The position numbers were made by a program, and so were the translations under genes. This document shows, in pieces, positions 1-9,015 of a stretch of 64,000 bases of DNA. Where the stretch lies: contig CANROU010000003.1 of NCBI GenBank assembly GCA_947632325.1, forward strand, positions 1 to 64,000, given 5' to 3'. Position 1 is the stretch's first letter. Each line of letters starts with the position of its first letter. Below the pieces are notes generated by a model. That model worked only from the letters and a program-made list of their open reading frames with translations. It was not told the DNA's origin and ran no database searches. The DNA comes from an uncultured Bacilli bacterium (GTDB taxonomy: Bacteria > Bacillota_I > Bacilli_A > RF39 > UBA660).

Positions 1-95
1 AAAAAGCCAAGCAAACTTCAAATACTCGGCTTTAATAAAACCATTTTCCCAAAATGGTAACACACTACGCTATTGACTAGCCAATAACGGTGTGC
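1..95 (-). other. Three consecutive stem-loops ending in a terminator
   Basis: Read on the minus strand, the stretch folds into three stem-loops in a row. The first pairs CACAC (61-65) with GTGTG (90-94), extended by TATTG/CAATA. The second is CCATTTT/AAAATGG (41-57). The last pairs AAAGCC with GGCTTT (3-8 and 28-33) and runs into TTTTT at the window edge, which looks like an intrinsic terminator. It lies downstream of the minus-strand gene at 181-1290, so it may be that gene's 3' untranslated region or a separate small RNA. Confidence 0.45.
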
Positions 96-180
96 AAAAG
101 AAATTTTCATTTTTGAAACCCAAAAACATAATTAAGCAAGGCTTAAGCCATCAAAACTGTGTTTTTTTAATTGTAATTAT

Positions 181-1290
181 TTATTTTGAAGCAGGATTTA
201 TCTCAATATTATATAAGTTAATATTATCTATATTATCAATTTTAAATGACGAATTATTTACCAATTCTTTATAGCCGCTTTTCATAATTTCTGTTGTTAA
301 ACCAAATACTTGAGCATATGACAAATATCTATCCCATAATATAACTTCATCTGCTCTCTTATCTATAAAATTACCAAAATCATTTATAAATGCTTTAAAA
401 GAATAAAGTTTATGTAATTCTTCAATACCTTTCTTTGTTTTCTTCAAATTGTTTTCTATTATGTTTTTATAATTTATATTTTTTACTTGTTTTCCTATAT
501 TCTTAAATCCAGTTAATACATTTATTAAATAGAAAGGGATAATTAATATAATATAAGTTAATATAAAGCCAAATACACCAAAGCCTATACTTTTAAATAT
601 ATTATCATTCAATAAGAACAAAACAAAAACAAAAATTCCAATTATAATACTTATTAGTAAATGAACTTTGCTTCTTTTTTTTATTATATCTTTTGTAAGT
701 GGCGGATTATTACTAATATTTATTTCTTCGTGATAATAAAGCCCTAAATCAATACCATCTTGCACACAATAATCATACCATTGTTGATAATTTATATTTT
801 TAATATCATTTTTTATTATTAAAGTTAATATATATTTTTCATTGCTCAACAAATCAGAATCAATATTCTTTAAAACTTTAATAATATATTTATCATTTTG
901 CTTTATTAAACTAAGATATTTTCTTGCACATAAATCAAGAATTACGGCAACTATATCTTTGTAATTTTCTATAGTTGAATCAAAAAGTAAAGAAGTAACC
1001 CCTATACCAAAATTATTGGGTAAATCTCTATAATAAATATAAGGATTAGTATTTTTAATATATTTATTTTCTTTTAGGATTTGCCATTTGCCTTTTAAAA
1101 TACCTGCTATAACACCTATTAACCCAAAAAATATTAAGGTCAACAAAATTATGCAAACCAAAACTTCCAATATGTTATTAGCACCAAAAAGAAAGTGAAT
1201 TAACAAAATAGTCAAGACTACAAGGAGCAAAACTGAAAATATTGTTGCTTTTAAATTGTATGTTTTACTATATTTAGTCTCTTTATTCAT
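181..1290 (-). CDS. DUF2207-like membrane protein
   Basis: A 369-residue membrane protein. Two hydrophobic helices lie near the N terminus (about residues 15-35 and 40-65) and two more at about 210-260. Between them is a soluble part that begins with a YYRDLPNNFGIGVTSLL motif and holds a small winged-helix-like stretch (AVILDLCARKYLSLI). This layout resembles the C-terminal half of DUF2207 proteins, whose function is unknown. The start has GAGAGGAG nine bases upstream. It is 85 bp downstream of the next minus-strand gene and probably shares its transcript. The family call is by motif only. Confidence 0.5.
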   Translation of the reverse strand: MNKETKYSKTYNLKATIFSVLLLVVLTILLIHFLFGANNILEVLVCIILLTLIFFGLIGVIAGILKGKWQILKENKYIKNTNPYIYYRDLPNNFGIGVTSLLFDSTIENYKDIVAVILDLCARKYLSLIKQNDKYIIKVLKNIDSDLLSNEKYILTLIIKNDIKNINYQQWYDYCVQDGIDLGLYYHEEINISNNPPLTKDIIKKRSKVHLLISIIIGIFVFVLFLLNDNIFKSIGFGVFGFILTYIILIIPFYLINVLTGFKNIGKQVKNINYKNIIENNLKKTKKGIEELHKLYSFKAFINDFGNFIDKRADEVILWDRYLSYAQVFGLTTEIMKSGYKELVNNSSFKIDNIDNINLYNIEINPASK

Positions 1291-1375
1291 AAGAAGTTTC
1301 TCCTCTCACTATTTAGCATCTGATCTTGTTTTGTGTTTTTTAAGAACTTAATATAATTTCAATTAAGCCAAATTA

Positions 1376-2680
1376 TTAATTAAAAAATCCATTCAAATAT
1401 TCATTAAAGTCTTTTTCATTATTTATATTTTCTGTTGTACTTATTTGAAACATTTGAGTAATATTATTATCTTTTATTCCAAAGAAATTATCTTCTTCAG
1501 AATATTTAAGTTTAGAACTCAATTCTTTTGTCCATTCAACTTTATTATAAAGTTTTTCTGCATCATAATAAATATCTAACCTTTTAGTATCTAAATTATA
1601 TAATGTTACAGTTCCTTTTATATAATTACGATACTTTAACGTTGAAACTTTTGGATTTACAACTTGAATATTATCTATAAATTCATAATTTTCAATTTTT
1701 TTATTTAAGATATTAGGAACATTCATTATTTTATCAACAATATAAGGTTCTTTATTATCATCAATGGATAAAGCACTGAAAAGTTCTTTAAATCCTATTA
1801 ACATTTCAGATTTTCCTTTATTAATTGCTTCTTGGTATCCTACTTTTTCACTATCATCTACTTCAAATAGACTATTGTAATGAGCATAAAACACTTTTCC
1901 CCCTATTTGTTTAGCAAAATAGTAGTTATATGATGAATTTCCAGTCTCTTGGCAAGAGATAAACGCATATTCATCATTTGATTCAAGTATATTTATATTT
2001 TCAAAAGAAAGTTGTTTTGTTCCACCACCTAAAACACCATTTTTAAAATTATTAACAAACTCATTTACATTTGTAGAACTACTTTCATTAAATTGAAAAT
2101 GAAAATAAGTAGCACCATTTTTTTCATAATAGAAAACAACAGTGTTAAAGTTTCCAAAACTTATACTAGACAATTTTGTATTATCTTTCTGTTGAAAAAT
2201 TAATGTTGTTTCATATTCTTTAAAAGCAAATTTGCTTACTGCTTCATCAAAAGTATAGGTTGAATTAATATTTCGTGAGCTATCGCTATAGACCACATTA
2301 GCATTATTGCTTGTTATTCCATTATTATCACCTTGATTTGACGATCTATTAAATAATAATAGTGCTCCAACACCCGCAATGACTGATGTGGCTATTATAC
2401 CAATAATTAGACCAAAGTGATTTTTCTTTGGTGGTTTACTATTAAAATTCTGATTACTATTTTCACTTTCAAAAGAATTCATAGGTTGTGGTGTCGGTTG
2501 TTGCATATTCATTTGATTTGTTATTGGTTGATAATCTGCATTAACTTGTTGTTGGCTATTAAATGTTGTTTGATTAACATTGACATTTTGATTATTTTGT
2601 AATGGTTGATTATTAGGTATTCCCTTACTATTTTGCACATTAAAATTATTTTGATTTGGGTTATTTTGTTCTTGATTCAT
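1376..2680 (-). CDS. Gln/Asn-rich single-pass membrane protein
   Basis: A 434-residue protein. The first ~90 residues are low complexity, rich in N and Q with few charges, and end in a PPKK stop-transfer-like cluster. One transmembrane helix follows (about residues 90-113), then a ~320-residue exported domain with no motif I recognise. The topology suggests a disordered cytoplasmic tail and an extracellular sensor or anchor domain. I place the start at the ATG at 2680, because AGGAAGG sits 11 bases upstream; the GTG three codons earlier would be only two bases from it. It probably shares a transcript with the DUF2207-like gene downstream. Confidence 0.6.
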   Translation of the reverse strand: MNQEQNNPNQNNFNVQNSKGIPNNQPLQNNQNVNVNQTTFNSQQQVNADYQPITNQMNMQQPTPQPMNSFESENSNQNFNSKPPKKNHFGLIIGIIATSVIAGVGALLLFNRSSNQGDNNGITSNNANVVYSDSSRNINSTYTFDEAVSKFAFKEYETTLIFQQKDNTKLSSISFGNFNTVVFYYEKNGATYFHFQFNESSSTNVNEFVNNFKNGVLGGGTKQLSFENINILESNDEYAFISCQETGNSSYNYYFAKQIGGKVFYAHYNSLFEVDDSEKVGYQEAINKGKSEMLIGFKELFSALSIDDNKEPYIVDKIMNVPNILNKKIENYEFIDNIQVVNPKVSTLKYRNYIKGTVTLYNLDTKRLDIYYDAEKLYNKVEWTKELSSKLKYSEEDNFFGIKDNNITQMFQISTTENINNEKDFNEYLNGFFN

Positions 2681-2768
2681 TATTTTCACTACCTTCCTAT
2701 TATTTATTTTATCATGAAAATATTGCTTTTAAGAAGTTATTTACAAAAGTACACAAATTTGTTAGTTC

Positions 2769-2791
2769 AAAATGTAAAATATGTAGTATAA
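2769..2791 (+). repeat. Promoter-like repeat, copy A
   Basis: AAAATGTAAAATATGTAGTATAA recurs at 4014-4036 with one change. Weaker similarity extends about 20 bases upstream of both copies. Each copy ends in a TATAAC or TATAAT that could be a -10 element; the -35 match is poor. It could be a duplicated promoter or the remnant of a larger duplication. Confidence 0.4.
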
Positions 2792-2915
2792 CCATATTAG
2801 TTAGTAATTATTACTACCTATTCTAAGTAATGAAAAAAATTGTTTGACTTCTCCTTTATACGCACCATTATGATAAGAAACTTGGACTTTTCGAGTAAGA
2901 AATAGAAAAATGGGC

Positions 2916-2944
2916 TTGATAAAAGCGTGTTTTTATGTTATGAT
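2916..2944 (+). promoter_or_regulatory. Promoter of antisense RNA 1
   Basis: TTGATA (2916-2921), a 17-bp spacer and TATGAT (2939-2944). The same promoter layout followed by the same 5' sequence (GAATACGTCAAGGAAACTTG) occurs at 7949-7977. The start point should be near 2951. Confidence 0.75.
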
Positions 2945-2972
2945 GAATACGTCAAGGAAACTTGCATAAAAT

Positions 2973-3010
2973 AAAAAAAGGGAACATTCAGTTTTTGCGA
3001 GTTGAATGCC
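2973..3010 (-). terminator. Terminator of peptide 1 mRNA
   Basis: On the minus strand, CATTCA and TGAATG (3003-3008 and 2985-2990) form a stem, followed by TTCCC and seven T residues (2979-2973). It lies about 50 bases past the stop of the peptide gene at 3059. Confidence 0.5.
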
Positions 3011-3030
3011 TACCCAATTAATATTGTTTA

Positions 3031-3068
3031 GACATTTAATTCAATGAAGAATTAAGTGTCATTTTTTT
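3031..3068 (+). terminator. Terminator of antisense RNA 1
   Basis: A 12-bp stem (3031-3042 with 3049-3060, one G-T pair) is followed by a run of seven T residues. Confidence 0.75.
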
Positions 3069-3151
3069 ATTACTATTATCATAACGATAAGGAGAAATAA
3101 AATGATAGCAATGAACTTTAGAACTTTTATAACAAAAGTCTTAGTTTTCAT
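3059..3151 (-). CDS. 30-residue hydrophobic toxin-like peptide 1
   Basis: A 30-codon gene whose product has a basic start (MKTKTFVIKVLK), a hydrophobic core (FIAIILFLLIVMIIVI) and two closing lysines, as in small membrane-active type I toxins. AAAGGAGG lies ten bases upstream of the ATG. A good promoter (TTGTTT-17-TATACT) at 3218-3246 gives a leader of about 59 nt. A plus-strand RNA converges on its 3' end. The peptide lacks the conserved pattern of Fst/Ldr toxins, so the family is unknown to me. A second locus of the same plan encodes a different peptide at 8095-8172. Confidence 0.65.
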   Translation of the reverse strand: MKTKTFVIKVLKFIAIILFLLIVMIIVIKK

Positions 3152-3217
3152 CTTTATCAAACCTCCTTTCTCTAAAGATTGGAGGTAGACACTCAACAAC
3201 TGATATTCCCTATAAAA

Positions 3218-3246
3218 AGTATACTATTTATTACATACAAAAACAA
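3218..3246 (-). promoter_or_regulatory. Promoter of toxin-like peptide 1
   Basis: Minus strand: TTGTTT (3246-3241), a 17-bp spacer and TATACT (3223-3218). The predicted start near 3210 is followed at once by GGGAATATCAGTT, which can pair with the 3' end of the same mRNA. Confidence 0.7.
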
Positions 3247-3310
3247 GTGTTCGGGTAATATTTTATTAAAAAGTTGTTTAACTTCTTTCCTTAGGGCACT
3301 AGATTGATAG

Positions 3311-3420
3311 AAAAATCGAACCATTATGGTTCGATTTTTAAAATGTTCTAATCTATGCTATTAAATTGATATGTTGCCAACTTGGAAAACTCACTTACAT
3401 ATTGGCAATCTAATATGCAT
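3311..3420. repeat. Duplicated hairpin element, copy 1
   Basis: The element starts with a 13-bp perfect hairpin (AAAAATCGAACCA, loop TTA) that could terminate transcription in both directions. After it come TTCTAATCTATGCTAT, TTAAATTGATAT and an inverted repeat TTGCCAA/TTGGCAA (3374-3380 and 3402-3408). The same order of parts, with a 14-base insertion and altered but still pairing stems, occurs at 5750-5857. The conserved order and pairing suggest a structured RNA or mobile non-coding element; its function is unknown. Confidence 0.5.
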
Positions 3421-3498
3421 ATAAATTAAAATACTTTATTAATTTAATCTGTTTATGTAATAGACATTTTAAATTATTATCTTTTTATATGAGAATTT

Positions 3499-3903
3499 TT
3501 ATATAACCTTGTTGTTTTTGTTTGATTTTGCTGCTAAATCTTCAACTTCTCGATCTAAATCAGTCCAGCCTTTTCTCAAAGCTGAAGCAAAATTATATCT
3601 CATGTCATTTGATGTGCTTGCCACATTTTTAGAAGTTTCATCTTCTCTTTTTCTATATGTTTCATATCTACTATTCTCATAATTAAAGAAAATAGTTAAT
3701 TCCTCTTCAGATAGTTTCTCTAATACTTCATCACGGAATAAATCCCATAATGCTTGATCATATTGTTGACATTTTTTAAATTCAATAGAATCTAAACCTT
3801 TACTATGTTCTACAGCATATTTTGTAGCACCAGCTTGAACAAGTCTATCTAAAATCCTTTTTTCTAAACTATCATTAAAGTTTTCTGCAGTAATTTTTTC
3901 CAT
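3499..3903 (-). CDS. Unknown 134-residue protein with a poly-G promoter
   Basis: A soluble, highly charged, mostly helical protein without signal peptide or membrane segment; I do not recognise a family. Its C-terminal third (ALRKGWTDLDREVEDLAAKSNK) looks like an amphipathic helix. The start is well supported by AAAGGAGG. The interest is in its promoter: consensus TTGACA and TATAAT are separated by only 15 bp, nine of them G. Gain of two G residues would restore the optimal 17-bp spacing, so expression may switch by slipped-strand mispairing. It stands alone between non-coding repeats, which fits an acquired or variable gene. Confidence 0.6.
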   Translation of the reverse strand: MEKITAENFNDSLEKRILDRLVQAGATKYAVEHSKGLDSIEFKKCQQYDQALWDLFRDEVLEKLSEEELTIFFNYENSRYETYRKREDETSKNVASTSNDMRYNFASALRKGWTDLDREVEDLAAKSNKNNKVI

Positions 3904-3927
3904 ATATACTCCTCCTTTCCTATTTCA

Positions 3928-3954
3928 ATTATAAAATACCCCCCCCCATGTCAA
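3928..3954 (-). promoter_or_regulatory. Candidate phase-variable promoter with G9 spacer
   Basis: On the minus strand, TTGACA (3954-3949), then T, nine G (3947-3939), TATTT, then TATAAT (3933-3928). Both hexamers are perfect, but the spacer is 15 bp. The predicted start is near 3921, only 18 bases before the ATG at 3903. Homopolymer tracts in this position drive phase variation in other bacteria, such as the poly-G tracts of Neisseria porA. Confidence 0.8.
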
Positions 3955-4013
3955 TATTTTTTATCCACAATTAGCGATATAATTATGGCTAAAAATATAC
4001 AAAAACTTGCTTT

Positions 4014-4036
4014 AAAATGTAAAATATATAGTATAA
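4014..4036 (+). repeat. Promoter-like repeat, copy B
   Basis: Second copy of the element at 2769-2791, ending in a full TATAAT (4032-4037). TTGCTT at 4007-4012 gives a 19-bp spacer. If active, it would transcribe the short reading frame at 4212 and the transporter at 4367 behind a leader of about 320 nt. Confidence 0.4.
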
Positions 4037-4039
4037 TGT

Positions 4040-4211
4040 AATTAATAGACTAACCTTAAACACACCAGTGATAAATCTGTTTAAATTTTTTCGAACTTAA
4101 ACTTAATATAAAAAGGTATAAAAGATATTTGATATCATCAATACTTAGATACTGCAAATAATAAAATATTAATTCATTTATATTAGCATTTGCGATTATT
4201 TAAGAGTAGAT
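4040..4211. other. AT-rich leader region, no gene seen
   Basis: Very AT-rich stretch between the promoter-like repeat and the short reading frame at 4212. It contains TTTTTTCGAACTTAAACTTAA, similar to the TTCGAAC stretches in other spacers of this island. I see no coding potential. Confidence 0.4.
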
Positions 4212-4316
4212 ATGAATAAATATTCAAAATTATTGGGCCTAAAAAATAATGTTGTTGTAACTCTAAATGCCATTAGTTATACAAATGAAGCTATACAAAA
4301 TACTTTTGTAGAATAG
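4212..4316 (+). CDS. Possible 34-residue peptide ahead of a transporter
   Basis: ATG to TAG encodes 34 residues, beginning MNKYSKLLGLKNNVVVTLNA. The only ribosome binding signal is a weak AAGAG five bases upstream. It sits 50 bp ahead of a transporter gene, the place of a leader peptide or of the precursor of an exported peptide. It has no Cys and no clear leader cleavage motif, and no modifying enzyme is nearby. It may be a chance reading frame. Confidence 0.3.
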   Translation: MNKYSKLLGLKNNVVVTLNAISYTNEAIQNTFVE

Positions 4317-4366
4317 GCAAAAAATATAAAAGAAGAAAAGATATAGAAGAAAGATAGGAAAAACAA

Positions 4367-5617
4367 ATGAATCACAATCATGTATGGAAAAATTTTTTAA
4401 TATCTGATTTAGCAGGAAAAGTTATAAGTGTTTTTAAAGATGTATTTTTAGGAATTTATTTTTTAAAAATAACAGAAGGAAGTATAGTCAATGTTTCCTT
4501 GTATTATATAACTTTCTTTTTAACTTACTTAGTCTGCTTAATAATTGTAAACAGACTACAAAAATTAAATTTAGTTTCTATGTTTAGAATAGGAATATTT
4601 TTAAATTTAATGCAGTGCATAGTCTTATTAATAGTTGGTAAAAAAATTTCAAATTATATAATCCTTTTTGCAATATTTGCCAGTATAGGCAATGCATTTT
4701 ATTATTATCCCGAGCAAATATTAATAAAAAGAATAAATAAAGAAGAAAATTTTCAAAACTATATTACTAAAGATCAAATTTTAAAATACATAATAAGTAT
4801 TATATTCCCTATTGTTTTAGGTTACTGTATTAGCAAGAATTCATATGAATTAGCTTTTATAGTATTAATAGCAGTAATTTCAATTAGCTTTATTTTTTCA
4901 TTATTTATAAAAGGATTGGATTTAAAGCATGAAAAAATAAATTTAAAAAGATTTTTTGCAAATATTAATAAAAAAGGAAATAAAAAAATAATGACATTAT
5001 TAAGTTTGAGAACATTATTTAGAAGTCTAAGTTCTTTTGGCGTTCTATCAACGTTGATTACTATTATAACTTTTCTTGTAGTTTCAACTGAACTATCATT
5101 AGGAAGTATCAGTAGCTTTATAACTGTTATTTCTATTCTAGTTATATATTGTATCAATAAATTTATAAAAAAGGAAAATTTATCTAAAGTATTTATTCCA
5201 TTGTCTATTATACAAAGTATAGTGGTTATAATCCTTACATTTAGTATGATGTATCTTGATATAAATAATATGATTCATATTGGCACAATAACTATAAATA
5301 TTGGTTTTTTATTAATACTTTTATATAATGTAGTTAATGGAATAAGTAATCCTATTTTTGAAACATCAAATTCAGTTGTATATTACGAATGTATGTGTAA
5401 ACAAAACATTAATATAGAAGATGAACCTAATTATGTATTTTGGTTTGAAGTTATGACCAATATTTCAAGGAGTTTAGGCTATTTAATTTTAATATTTGTT
5501 TCGAAAATAGGATTTAACTTAAATATTATTTCAATTTTAATTGTTGCATTTACTTTAATGTACATAGCTTTTGCATATACATTAAACAAAATAAATAAAG
5601 ATTATTTATTAAACTAA
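4367..5617 (+). CDS. MFS-type transporter
   Basis: A 416-residue protein with about twelve membrane helices across its whole length and a basic cytoplasmic loop near the middle (RFFANINKKGNKK). Length and layout fit a major facilitator superfamily permease of the type annotated in Bacillota as putative MFS transporter; the substrate cannot be told. AGGAAAAACAA precedes the ATG. Its only close co-directional neighbour is the possible 34-residue peptide upstream. Codon use is extremely AT-rich (ATA, TTA), even relative to the rest of the window, which is consistent with an accessory gene. Confidence 0.65.
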   Translation: MNHNHVWKNFLISDLAGKVISVFKDVFLGIYFLKITEGSIVNVSLYYITFFLTYLVCLIIVNRLQKLNLVSMFRIGIFLNLMQCIVLLIVGKKISNYIILFAIFASIGNAFYYYPEQILIKRINKEENFQNYITKDQILKYIISIIFPIVLGYCISKNSYELAFIVLIAVISISFIFSLFIKGLDLKHEKINLKRFFANINKKGNKKIMTLLSLRTLFRSLSSFGVLSTLITIITFLVVSTELSLGSISSFITVISILVIYCINKFIKKENLSKVFIPLSIIQSIVVIILTFSMMYLDINNMIHIGTITINIGFLLILLYNVVNGISNPIFETSNSVVYYECMCKQNINIEDEPNYVFWFEVMTNISRSLGYLILIFVSKIGFNLNIISILIVAFTLMYIAFAYTLNKINKDYLLN

Positions 5618-5749
5618 TAAAGTGATTGAACAACCTAACTCCATTTATACATATTCTTGTTCTTTCTCATATTAAATTTGTTTTTCTAGATTAATATAAG
5701 TATTATTTTTAAATTCAAGTTTCTAATAAATTTGTCTAAAAAAATTTCA

Positions 5750-5857
5750 CTTGAACTGTTATGGTTCGAGTTTTACAAATTTCTAATATATGCTATAATT
5801 TTTATAGTTTAAATTGATATAGTGTCAATTCAGAAAATACATTTGCATATTGTCACA
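5750..5857. repeat. Duplicated hairpin element, copy 2
   Basis: Second copy of the element at 3311-3420: stem CTTGAAC/GTTCGAG (5750-5756 with 5763-5769), TTCTAATATATGCTAT, a 14-base insertion, TTTAAATTGATAT and a stem GTG-T-CAAT/ATTG-T-CAC (5822-5829 and 5849-5856). The arms differ in sequence from copy 1 but still pair. It ends about 55 bases before the start of the HExxH gene. Confidence 0.5.
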
Positions 5858-5912
5858 GATAACATATTATACGCACATATTAATAAGTGATATATGCTGG
5901 AAAAGAGGTACC

Positions 5913-6794
5913 ATGAGTGTTGATGCCATTAAAAATGATTTAACAAGTACTATCAATAAAAAAATAAAAGATTATTCTAGTATCATTATAGACTCTTTTG
6001 TTGAATTTTATGGTAAAGAATATAGACCAATTATAATGGATAGGTTTAATAATATAAGTTATTTATATTATATAACTGATTTAGATATTTTTTATATTGC
6101 GAAAGAATTACCAAAGATAACTAATGAAGAATATAAAAATATAATTTTTACTATTCCATATATCACATATTTACTTCAAAATAAATTTTACAAGCAAAAA
6201 GTTACACCACATAATTTTTATGAATTGGGTTTAAATAAAATCATAGGAGCATCTAGTAATGATTTGTTCTCTAAAAACTTAAGTCAATATTCGATTGCAT
6301 TAGCACTTCGCGATGACAATGAAAATTCTTATGAGGTTAATATACCTATGAATAACGATATTAAACGAATTATTGCTTTACCAATTTTTGCAGCTAGTGA
6401 TAAAAATTTATTTCATGAGTTAAATCATGCAATATGTTCACAAATGATTTTTAGAGATAAAAAGCCAATAATTAAGTGTGGATTAGAGTATGAAGATATG
6501 GATAAATTGTATATATATGAAATTATAAATGATAAAATATCACTAGAAATTTATGATATATTCAAGTCAAAATGTCGTGATAAAATCTTGAATTTTAATA
6601 TTTTAAGCAAAGAATTAACAAATGTATATGAAAATTATCATTATTTGATTGATTCGTTTTATGAACACTATAAAGAAAAATTAAAGTTATCAAGCATTGA
6701 TAATATTCCCTTTCAAATAGTAGGAAAAGATTCAAAACAACAATTTAAAGATTTATCTAGTATAATAGAAAATAAGAAATCAAACAAAAAATAA
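5913..6794 (+). CDS. Unknown protein with HELNH metalloprotease-like motif
   Basis: A 293-residue soluble protein without signal peptide. Residues 168-172 read HELNH, the HExxH zinc motif, in a hydrophobic context (DKNLFHELNHAIC). About 35 residues on, a helix with NDKISLEIYDIF could provide the third ligand. A cytoplasmic metallopeptidase is therefore likely, but I do not recognise the family; M78/ImmA-type proteins are one possibility. I chose the ATG at 5913 because AAAGAGG precedes it; an in-frame ATG at 5850 lies inside the repeat element and has no ribosome binding site. A terminator hairpin follows at 6868-6916. Confidence 0.55.
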   Translation: MSVDAIKNDLTSTINKKIKDYSSIIIDSFVEFYGKEYRPIIMDRFNNISYLYYITDLDIFYIAKELPKITNEEYKNIIFTIPYITYLLQNKFYKQKVTPHNFYELGLNKIIGASSNDLFSKNLSQYSIALALRDDNENSYEVNIPMNNDIKRIIALPIFAASDKNLFHELNHAICSQMIFRDKKPIIKCGLEYEDMDKLYIYEIINDKISLEIYDIFKSKCRDKILNFNILSKELTNVYENYHYLIDSFYEHYKEKLKLSSIDNIPFQIVGKDSKQQFKDLSSIIENKKSNKK

Positions 6795-6867
6795 TTTGTT
6801 GTGCGTCTTCCTTTAGGTCACTATTGATGAATCTATTCGAACTTTTTCGAACATAGTATTAAAAAAC

Positions 6868-6916
6868 AACCCCTTAGGTTATTTTGATACACTTGTCAAA
6901 ATATCCATGGGTCTTT
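6868..6916 (+). terminator. Terminator downstream of the HExxH gene
   Basis: A long, interrupted hairpin: ACCCCTTAGGTTATTTTGA pairs with TCAAAATATCCATGGGT, and a run of seven T follows. Confidence 0.7.
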
Positions 6917-7115
6917 TTTTGCATTAATGACGCCCTATTATTTTTGTTAATTTTATCTATATTCTCAGTTAAATTGTTTATTTAAACTTATTTTAAATAA
7001 AAAGACAACAATATCGCTTACGATTAATTTGTGATATGTTGCTTAAATGAGATTTCAAAAGGATTTTATCACTTTGAACACATCTAAGTTGATTTGTCGA
7101 TTTAGTAGTGTGTTT

Positions 7116-7135
7116 ACTATATCGTACGATATAGT
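7116..7135. repeat. Perfect 20-bp palindrome
   Basis: ACTATATCGTACGATATAGT equals its own reverse complement. There is no loop, so a protein binding site for a dimer is as likely as a hairpin. It lies beyond the lipoprotein terminator, with no promoter recognised next to it. Confidence 0.6.
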
Positions 7136-7184
7136 TAAAAAGCAGAAATCCGTTAGTTATGGTATTTCTTTCCGGATTTCTGCT
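7136..7184 (-). terminator. Terminator of the lipoprotein gene
   Basis: AGCAGAAATCCG (7141-7152) and CGGATTTCTGCT (7173-7184) form a 12-bp perfect stem, followed on the minus strand by five T (7140-7136). Confidence 0.85.
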
Positions 7185-7211
7185 TCAAAAATTTAAAAAT
7201 AATATAAGTAA

Positions 7212-7691
7212 TTATCTTGTTTTTTCATTAGTTTCTTCAGTAGTTGGCTCCATAGTTCTTCTAACAATAGCAATTATATCATTATTATCTAATTCGCCTT
7301 GCATGGCCTTTGCTATTTCATTAGGTGTTAAATAACGAGTAATACTTTCTTCATTAGTAATTCCATAATAACGAAATGCAGGGCTATTAGTGCTTTTTGA
7401 AATACATTTTTCACTTGCAAAACATTCTCCTGATATAACGCTACGATAATGATGATAATATTTACCAGTATTAGTATCAACTATACAATCCGTAAGTGTA
7501 ACAGCAATATCTTTAGCTCCATCTTCAAAAGTAACTACACAGGTATCTTCTAAAATAGTTCCTTCTAAAAAATTGTTTTTATCATTTCTTCCACATCCTG
7601 TTAGTGTTGTAGCTGCAAGAGTACCAACTAGCACACAAGCCGCTAGTTTAGATACCGCTTTTTGATTAATTTTAAAATTCCTAATTTTCAT
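7212..7691 (-). CDS. Small lipoprotein of unknown function
   Basis: A 159-residue protein with a long signal peptide. The basic n-region ends in KAVSK, the h-region is LAACVLVGTLAATTLTG, and the lipobox TLTGC puts the lipidated Cys at about residue 33. The mature part of about 125 residues has Cys pairs (CVVT, CIVD, GECF, EKC) and a TYHHYR-like patch, but no family I recognise. The start has AAAGGAG nine bases upstream and a promoter TTGACT-17-TAAAGT. It is a single-gene transcript with its own terminator. Confidence 0.7.
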   Translation of the reverse strand: MKIRNFKINQKAVSKLAACVLVGTLAATTLTGCGRNDKNNFLEGTILEDTCVVTFEDGAKDIAVTLTDCIVDTNTGKYYHHYRSVISGECFASEKCISKSTNSPAFRYYGITNEESITRYLTPNEIAKAMQGELDNNDIIAIVRRTMEPTTEETNEKTR

Positions 7692-7721
7692 AATTATTTT
7701 CTCCTTTAGAAATTGAGTAAT

Positions 7722-7750
7722 ACTTTACCATACATCACGTAAAAAGTCAA
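7722..7750 (-). promoter_or_regulatory. Promoter of the lipoprotein gene
   Basis: Minus strand: TTGACT (7750-7745), a 17-bp spacer, TAAAGT (7727-7722). The same two hexamers with the same spacing precede rpmB at 50503, so this looks like a common strong promoter form here. Confidence 0.75.
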
Positions 7751-7948
7751 ACATGTTTATCTCAACCTCTCTTGTATAAAACTTATTATAGTGCTTATTG
7801 TTTTCCATTCTTTGTCAGATTCAATAGGTTTTAGTTCTAAAGTACCTTTATTAAATTATATGTTGAAGCATATAATTTTAACTTCCCTTCATCGTTCGCA
7901 CAAGATTGATAGCAAACTACAAAAATTCGGGTAAAATAGTAAAAAGGC

Positions 7949-7977
7949 TTGTTAAAAAATCATTCTTATGTTATTAT
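7949..7977 (+). promoter_or_regulatory. Promoter of antisense RNA 2
   Basis: TTGTTA (7949-7954), a 17-bp spacer, TATTAT (7972-7977). The promoter and the following GAATACGTCAAGGAAACTTG match the first locus; upstream similarity extends back to about 7880. Confidence 0.7.
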
Positions 7978-8004
7978 GAATACGTCAAGGAAACTTGCAT
8001 AAAA

Positions 8005-8045
8005 TAAAAAGGATACATTTGATTGTAGGAATCAGATGTTATCCC
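8005..8045 (-). terminator. Terminator of peptide 2 mRNA
   Basis: On the minus strand, AACATCTGATT and AATCAAATGT form a stem, extended by GGAT/ATCC, and are followed by TTTTTATTTT. The last arm, TCAAATGTATCC, is the exact complement of the predicted 5' end of the same mRNA. Confidence 0.6.
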
Positions 8046-8056
8046 TTATTGGATTT

Positions 8057-8093
8057 CATCTGAAATCAACAATAGTTGAGATCAGATGTTTTT
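8057..8093 (+). terminator. Terminator of antisense RNA 2
   Basis: CATCTGA...TCAGATG outer stem with TCAAC/GTTGA inner stem, then TTTTTATT. Confidence 0.75.
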
Positions 8094-8094
8094 A

Positions 8095-8172
8095 TTATTT
8101 AAATAGTAAGGTGATTACTATAAAGAATAATAGTAGAATTATAAAAAATTGAGAAAATTCTCTTTTTGTCAT
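8095..8172 (-). CDS. 25-residue hydrophobic toxin-like peptide 2
   Basis: Encodes 25 residues: a charged start (MTKREFSQ), a continuous hydrophobic stretch (FFIILLLFFIVITLLF) and a closing Lys. AAAGGTGGTGG precedes the ATG by six bases. A promoter TTGTAT-17-TATAAC lies at 8251-8279, which gives a leader of about 72 nt. The peptide differs in sequence from the one at 3059-3151, but the genes have the same size class, strand, convergent antisense RNA and leader/terminator pairing. I infer a type I toxin; no toxicity can be shown from sequence. Confidence 0.65.
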   Translation of the reverse strand: MTKREFSQFFIILLLFFIVITLLFK

Positions 8173-8250
8173 AATGAACCACCACCTTTCTTTTATCCTT
8201 TGATAATAGAAAGGGAAAACACCTGATATATTTCAAATGTATCCAATAAT

Positions 8251-8279
8251 GTTATATCAAACATTTGTTCTTGATACAA
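8251..8279 (-). promoter_or_regulatory. Promoter of toxin-like peptide 2
   Basis: Minus strand: TTGTAT (8279-8274), 17 bp, TATAAC (8256-8251). The start is expected near 8244, so that the mRNA would begin with GGATACATTTGA. Confidence 0.6.
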
Positions 8280-8316
8280 TACTTTTATTATGTAAAAAAA
8301 AAATAAAATCATAATA

Positions 8317-8338
8317 AAAAGCACAAGTATGTGCTTTT
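8317..8338 (-). terminator. Terminator of the CmpB-like gene
   Basis: AAAAGCAC/GTGCTTTT, an 8-bp stem, then TATTAT on the minus strand, just past the stop codon. Confidence 0.75.
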
Positions 8339-8339
8339 C

Positions 8340-8978
8340 TCATTTAAATGACATATAATGAACGCCTAATTTAGAATAAATATCATAAGCCCTTGGTAAG
8401 TGAAATAATCTAGCTATAAAACAGTTATATACTTCATCTATAAAAAATATAGCACATAAAGTAATTGTTATACTTAAAAAAACTTTTTTATTAACCTTCT
8501 TAGCTATATAAAAACACAATGGTATCAAGCCATAAATCAAAATCAATCCAGAAAGGCCGAAGAATAACACGCTTCTTAAACAAACATATCCCCCGATGTT
8601 ACCAAAATTCCATATTTCTTGATTGTAATCCCAACAGCGATTACCAGCTCGTACTATATCCATTACCCACCCTGTTACAAATTCTAAGACACCACATAAT
8701 AACATACTAATCAAAAATACTTTAACTGGATGTTTTCTTTGTTTATAGGCAGCAAAATAAATACCTAAACTCCCATAAGCATAAATATTAATCCATGGTA
8801 AAAAATGACCACCACGCCAATAAAAATATTGTCTGCCCCCATTTAAATAATAAAAAATATACTCGTATAAAAAACCATAAATTCCTGTAATCACAATCAA
8901 CAAACATAAAATACCTAACAACGTCTTCCAATCAAAAGAATGATCTTTCATAAGATAATTTTTGTATTTTTCTGTCAC
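8340..8978 (-). CDS. CmpB-like putative ABC transporter permease
   Basis: A 212-residue protein with about five membrane helices. The central block (GWVMDIVRAGNRCWDYNQEIWNFGNIGGYVCLRS) fits the signature of the family PF06541, named putative ABC transporter permease CmpB, in which a W-D-Y group and N-x-x-G-x-x-C-L lie between helices. No ATPase partner is adjacent, and the family's true role is not established. It is 37 bp downstream of the FAD oxidoreductase gene and probably the last gene of the scpA-scpB transcript. Confidence 0.7.
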   Translation of the reverse strand: MTEKYKNYLMKDHSFDWKTLLGILCLLIVITGIYGFLYEYIFYYLNGGRQYFYWRGGHFLPWINIYAYGSLGIYFAAYKQRKHPVKVFLISMLLCGVLEFVTGWVMDIVRAGNRCWDYNQEIWNFGNIGGYVCLRSVLFFGLSGLILIYGLIPLCFYIAKKVNKKVFLSITITLCAIFFIDEVYNCFIARLFHLPRAYDIYSKLGVHYMSFK

Positions 8979-9015
8979 ATAACCACTTCCATTCCACTAT
9001 TTCATTATAAAATTA

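Follow-up and report, generated by a model that had tools for sequence, protein, structure and literature searches.

Does a run of nine G residues between two consensus promoter hexamers act as a length-dependent gene switch in an uncultured bacterium of the Bacilli? We studied this question at positions 3928-3954 of a 64-kb stretch (the window) with which a 99-kb contig begins. The contig belongs to an assembly (G000, the host genome) of 1.05 Mb, 35 contigs, and about 28% GC. We conclude that the site is in all probability a sigma-70-type promoter for a gene of 134 amino acid residues, switched by slippage, and one of a genome-wide set of such promoters.

Promoter and downstream gene in the window

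The minus strand from 3954 to 3928 reads TTGACA-T-GGGGGGGGG-TATTT-TATAAT (Table 1). The initial annotation had described perfect hexamers 15 bp apart with nine G residues between them, aimed at the gene at 3499-3903 through a ribosome-binding site, and direct reading of the minus strand confirmed each of these points. The spacer consists of T, G9, and TATTT, and the homopolymer thus lies between the hexamers, as in phase-variable promoters of the porA/opc type. Four sites in the window have the form TTGACN-12..22-TATAAT, and the three other than the poly-G site all have a 17-bp spacer. In 64 kb, about 0.03 runs of at least 9 are expected under a first-order Markov model.

We take the 134-codon ORF as a real gene, since its stop-free length is very improbable by chance at the local base composition and its ribosome site is strong. 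The predicted product is hydrophilic and shows neither an evident signal peptide nor an evident transmembrane segment. No credible relative was found in Pfam, NCBIfam, PHROGs, PADLOC, or the PDB sequences, nor among plasmids, phages, and viral contigs. A search of 291 genomes of the family gave chance matches only; of the three weak matches, two were short stretches in unrelated-looking proteins and one lay in a stop-containing frame, and all were judged to be chance. AlphaFold without an alignment gave a helical model of low confidence (pLDDT 53). The hairpin beyond the gene is probably a bidirectional terminator that ends its transcript, so the gene looks monocistronic. An Rfam search of window positions 1-9000 gave no match.

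Table 1. Features of the promoter region in the window and positions of intragenic G tracts in the host genome
Feature	Position	Strand	Basis or remark
-35 hexamer TTGACA	3954-3949	-	exact consensus
First spacer base, T	3948	-	
G9 homopolymer tract, putative variable element in the promoter spacer	3947-3939	-	sequence
TATTT, spacer on the -10 side	3938-3934	-	
-10 hexamer TATAAT	3933-3928	-	exact consensus
Ribosome-binding site AAAGGAGGAG, 5 nt 5' of the ATG	3918-3909	-	sequence
ATG start codon of the 134-codon ORF	3903-3901	-	sequence
134-aa ORF, orphan, downstream of the poly-G promoter	3499-3903	-	ORF translation
13-bp hairpin flanked by A/T runs	3311-3339		-15.5 kcal/mol, z = -5.8
MFS family gene	4367-5617	points away from the 134-aa gene	neighbour on the other side
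Intragenic G9/G10 tracts, host genome	C1:130740, C1:132197, C2:113036, C3:78863, C6:57614, C8:25767, C12:5		

G tracts in promoters and coding regions of the host genome

The G9 tract had also been noted as the only long G or C run in the window. This statement holds, since no other run there reaches 7, but the tract is not unique in the host genome, which contains 13 runs of at least 8, among them 12 of at least 9; in that genome, the stretches around the tracts were examined in detail. Five of the 13 tracts (G9 or G10) lie inside TTGAC-...-TATAAT spacers of 15-18 bp, and seven are located at the 5' end of the coding sequence in a family of surface-protein genes. Besides the window promoter (G9, 15-bp spacer, orphan gene), the promoters precede genes assigned by eye: a CalY/TasA-like secreted protein on C1 (G9, 18 bp), a membrane-anchored protein with an InlB-like repeat on C7 (G10, 18 bp), an IspD/TarI-like cytidylyltransferase on C10 (G10, 17 bp), and UDP-galactopyranose mutase followed by a glycosyltransferase on C19 (G9, 17 bp). 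At the C10 locus (L024), an IS30-like transposase gene lies upstream of the promoter, in the opposite orientation to the cytidylyltransferase gene.

The seven intragenic tracts (Table 1; loci L004, L006, L008, L013, L016, L021, and L027) are located at about codons 7-9 of genes for proteins with LRR-like repeats, as judged by eye, in the context ATGAACAAAAAGTTAACCT-G9-TCATTAAATAA. In the readable copies, the long frame opens on the loss of one G or the gain of two, and in the assembled form a stop is reached after about 12 codons. All of these copies are out of frame in the same direction, by one base, which is an apparent all-OFF state of the family in the assembly. The contig edge lies 4 bases past the tract in the C12 copy, so its frame is unreadable. 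In a related gene of the congener G002 (L186), G9 stands in an open frame. An OFF majority has been reported for some BspA-like genes of Candidatus Mycoplasma girerdii (PMC5476646). A common 5' flank, AACAAAAAGTT(G/A)AC-N-T-G9, was seen at promoter tracts (L002 and L024) and at intragenic tracts (L004 and L016), as well as in relatives from the genome G105.

Sister promoters and distribution of the design

Tract lengths differ between promoters that are otherwise nearly identical, the lengths being those of assembled copies and not population counts. The C7 and C19 promoters of the host genome are copies of each other (88.6% identity over 105 bp) and carry G10 and G9, respectively. In the genome G614, promoters that share TTGACTCC...TGTTATATAAT, with leaders of about 110 nt that are almost the same, have tracts of G7, G8, and G9. 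A promoter pair in Lapin-018 bin38 has G11 and G10, with zero mismatches in 70 flanking nucleotides. In G002, the lengths are G10 and G9 (L193 and L194) and G10 and G13 (L180 and L188). The promoter of the orthologous glf gene, for UDP-galactopyranose mutase, has G9 in the host genome and G10 in G002, and the proteins are 71% identical. At the level of the assembled sequences, it is clear from the sister and orthologous promoters compared that the tract changes more rapidly than the sequence on either side of it.

In the 291 family genomes, the pattern TTGACAT-G7+-...-TATAAT was found at 11 sites in five genomes, and its reversed control at none. In 395 genomes of the class, the search used a broader pattern that admitted either G or C in the tract. 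Among the matches listed, homopolymer tracts occurred in seven family genomes (35 sites in G105, 9 in G019, 5 each in G000 and G614, 2 in G131, and 1 each in G060 and G115) and in one genome outside the family (G411). All of these homopolymers were G on the coding strand, the remaining matches listed were mixed G/C, and none had a C tract; the reversed pattern was almost absent. The spread is patchy: tracts of at least 8 number 21 in G002 versus 1 in its congener G001, and 43 in G105 versus 3 in its congener G231. The lone tract of G001 sits outside any promoter, an observation that counts against the explanation we prefer.

A scan of 84,980 GTDB species genomes for TTGACA-N-G8+-N-TATAAT, admitting spacers of 12-25 bp, gave at least 115 stretches. 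The matches listed came mostly from gut Bacilli and Clostridia and were scattered in other phyla, where some may be due to chance. Spacers of 15-21 bp were found in 95 of the 105 distinct sites among the matches listed, where chance would give half (p = 2e-18). Among these matches, 90 distinct genes downstream of the promoter had a ribosome site; an N-terminal hydrophobic segment was present in 68 of them, versus 125 of 467 other ORFs of the same loci (p = 4e-18, by a simple hydropathy score, and with p-values inflated by the kinship of the genes). The genes downstream of poly-G promoters thus appear to be mostly those of secreted or surface proteins, and the 134-aa gene is an exception among them. 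In the wider set, no compensation was found between the length of the tract and that of the remaining spacer (Spearman -0.15, p = 0.14), so the length in an assembly does not necessarily reflect a selected state.

Two further observations were made in the scans. In a rabbit-gut MAG, CANRHM01 (Lapin-032 bin119), about twenty near-identical promoters have G8-G10 tracts, most of them in front of genes for secreted proteins whose N termini are CalY-like (for example L057, L063, L064, L089, L138, and L139, and on other contigs). On each of the two viral contigs L158 and L159, a G9 promoter precedes the gene for one and the same secreted protein of 153 aa.

The G tract might instead be a fixed promoter or operator element, that is, a protein-binding or DNA-structure motif by the -35 box whose conservation would serve binding rather than changes of length. 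The class survey, with G only on the coding strand and at a fixed position after TTGAC, and the A-rich upstream sequence common to several loci are what such an element would predict. However, tract lengths range from 7 to 17 among the sites and differ by one or two between promoters with stable flanks, G tracts also occur within genes of the same genome, and the same design is found in unrelated phyla; we consider a fixed element unlikely. Control by a G-quadruplex was also considered and is not favoured, as an isolated run of nine G residues does not readily fold by itself into a four-stranded structure.

A constitutive promoter of the ordinary kind in which a G run arose by chance, with neither switching nor any function of the tract, is still less likely. 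Both hexamers are consensus, as such a promoter would have them, but the composition of the window predicts about 0.5 runs of at least 9 in the host genome where 12 were found, and finding five of the 13 in such spacers by chance has a probability of about 1e-15, a value that treats the tracts as independent though two of the promoters are copies. An artefact of two-colour poly-G sequencing or misassembly is very improbable: some tracts do lie at contig ends (C2 and C12), and G tracts are difficult to sequence (PMC9187656), but the window tract lies 3.9 kb inside its contig, surrounded by a promoter, a ribosome site, and an ORF that form a coherent whole, and the same design recurs in many independent assemblies, including that of the isolate Helicobacter labacensis.

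For the class of poly-G promoters, the phase-variable reading put forward in the initial annotation is therefore well supported by these genome comparisons, namely by the five loci of one design in the host genome, the differing tract lengths in near-identical and orthologous promoters, the clustering of spacers, and the strong bias toward secreted and surface genes. Very likely, the window promoter belongs to a set of switches of this kind that turn genes on or off at random.

Proposed switching and comparison with known systems

In the proposed phase-variable mechanism, replication slippage would add or remove G residues in the G9 tract, and each G gained or lost would shift the spacing of the hexamers by 1 bp. 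Transcription of the 134-aa gene would rise or fall with the spacing, and these changes would be random, heritable, and reversible. Sigma-70 promoters prefer a spacing of about 17 bp. The earlier suggestion that G9 is suboptimal and G11 ideal would fit this canonical spacing: the assembled 15-bp form is expected to be weak ('OFF' or low), and the G10 (16 bp) and G11 (17 bp) forms stronger. As the other four G-tract promoters of the host have spacers of 17-18 bp, the window promoter may be in a low state. The switched set of the host would comprise at least five G-tract promoters, of surface or envelope genes and one orphan, and the seven genes with an intragenic tract.

A broader proposal, which we offer tentatively and rate at somewhat below even, is that, in uncultured gut Bacilli and Clostridia, poly-G promoter spacers constitute a major phase-variation system that has so far gone unrecognised. 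A cassette of an A-rich upstream element, TTGAC, G9, and TATAAT would have spread by duplication, and in each spacer the fixed portion outside the G tract would set the number of slips between OFF and ON, giving each gene its own duty cycle. The window gene, needing two extra G residues, would then rarely be ON.

The many G-tract promoters before surface genes in uncultured gut bacteria suggest that part of the surface variation is set by slippage. A single assembled genome would then represent one of many expression states, and the lengths of the tracts are directly accessible in metagenome reads that already exist.

Phase switching by homopolymers is best known from pathogenic proteobacteria. 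The mechanism proposed here is of the porA/opc kind, in a lineage for which, provisionally, we found no report in the open-access journal literature. The homopolymer switch of a gut commensal found in the same search is intragenic, and a 2025 review (PMC11868660) names neither Firmicutes nor Bacillota, its Clostridia passages concerning C. difficile. In Bifidobacterium breve, replication slippage in a G tract (G9-G12) switches sortase-dependent pili (PMC9187656). This system likewise concerns surface structures of a gut commensal, and its logic matches that of the seven intragenic tracts; however, it is intragenic and translational, whereas the window site would be transcriptional. Candidatus Mycoplasma girerdii has phase-variable BspA-like proteins and a G8 tract in a mod gene (PMC5476646). 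It resembles the host in its small genome, its broad group, and the repeat tracts in a surface-protein family whose majority form is often OFF, but its repeats are mostly dinucleotides inside genes, and the word promoter does not occur in that report. The invertons of gut bacteria also switch promoters of surface genes at random, but by recombinase-driven inversion; no inversion element was noticed here, where the G tract suffices as an explanation.

The porA promoter of Neisseria meningitidis contains a poly-G tract. In the poly-C tract of the opc promoter of the same species (Sarkari 1994, as cited in PMC6389960 and PMC3447861), a change from 11C to 12C raises Opc expression (PMC3447861). 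The poly-G class resembles these two promoters, in which the length of a promoter-region homopolymer sets the transcription of a surface protein. It differs from them in that both hexamers are consensus, the tract is G on the coding strand, the bacteria are uncultured Bacilli and not Neisseria, and up to 35 such promoters occur in one genome (G105).
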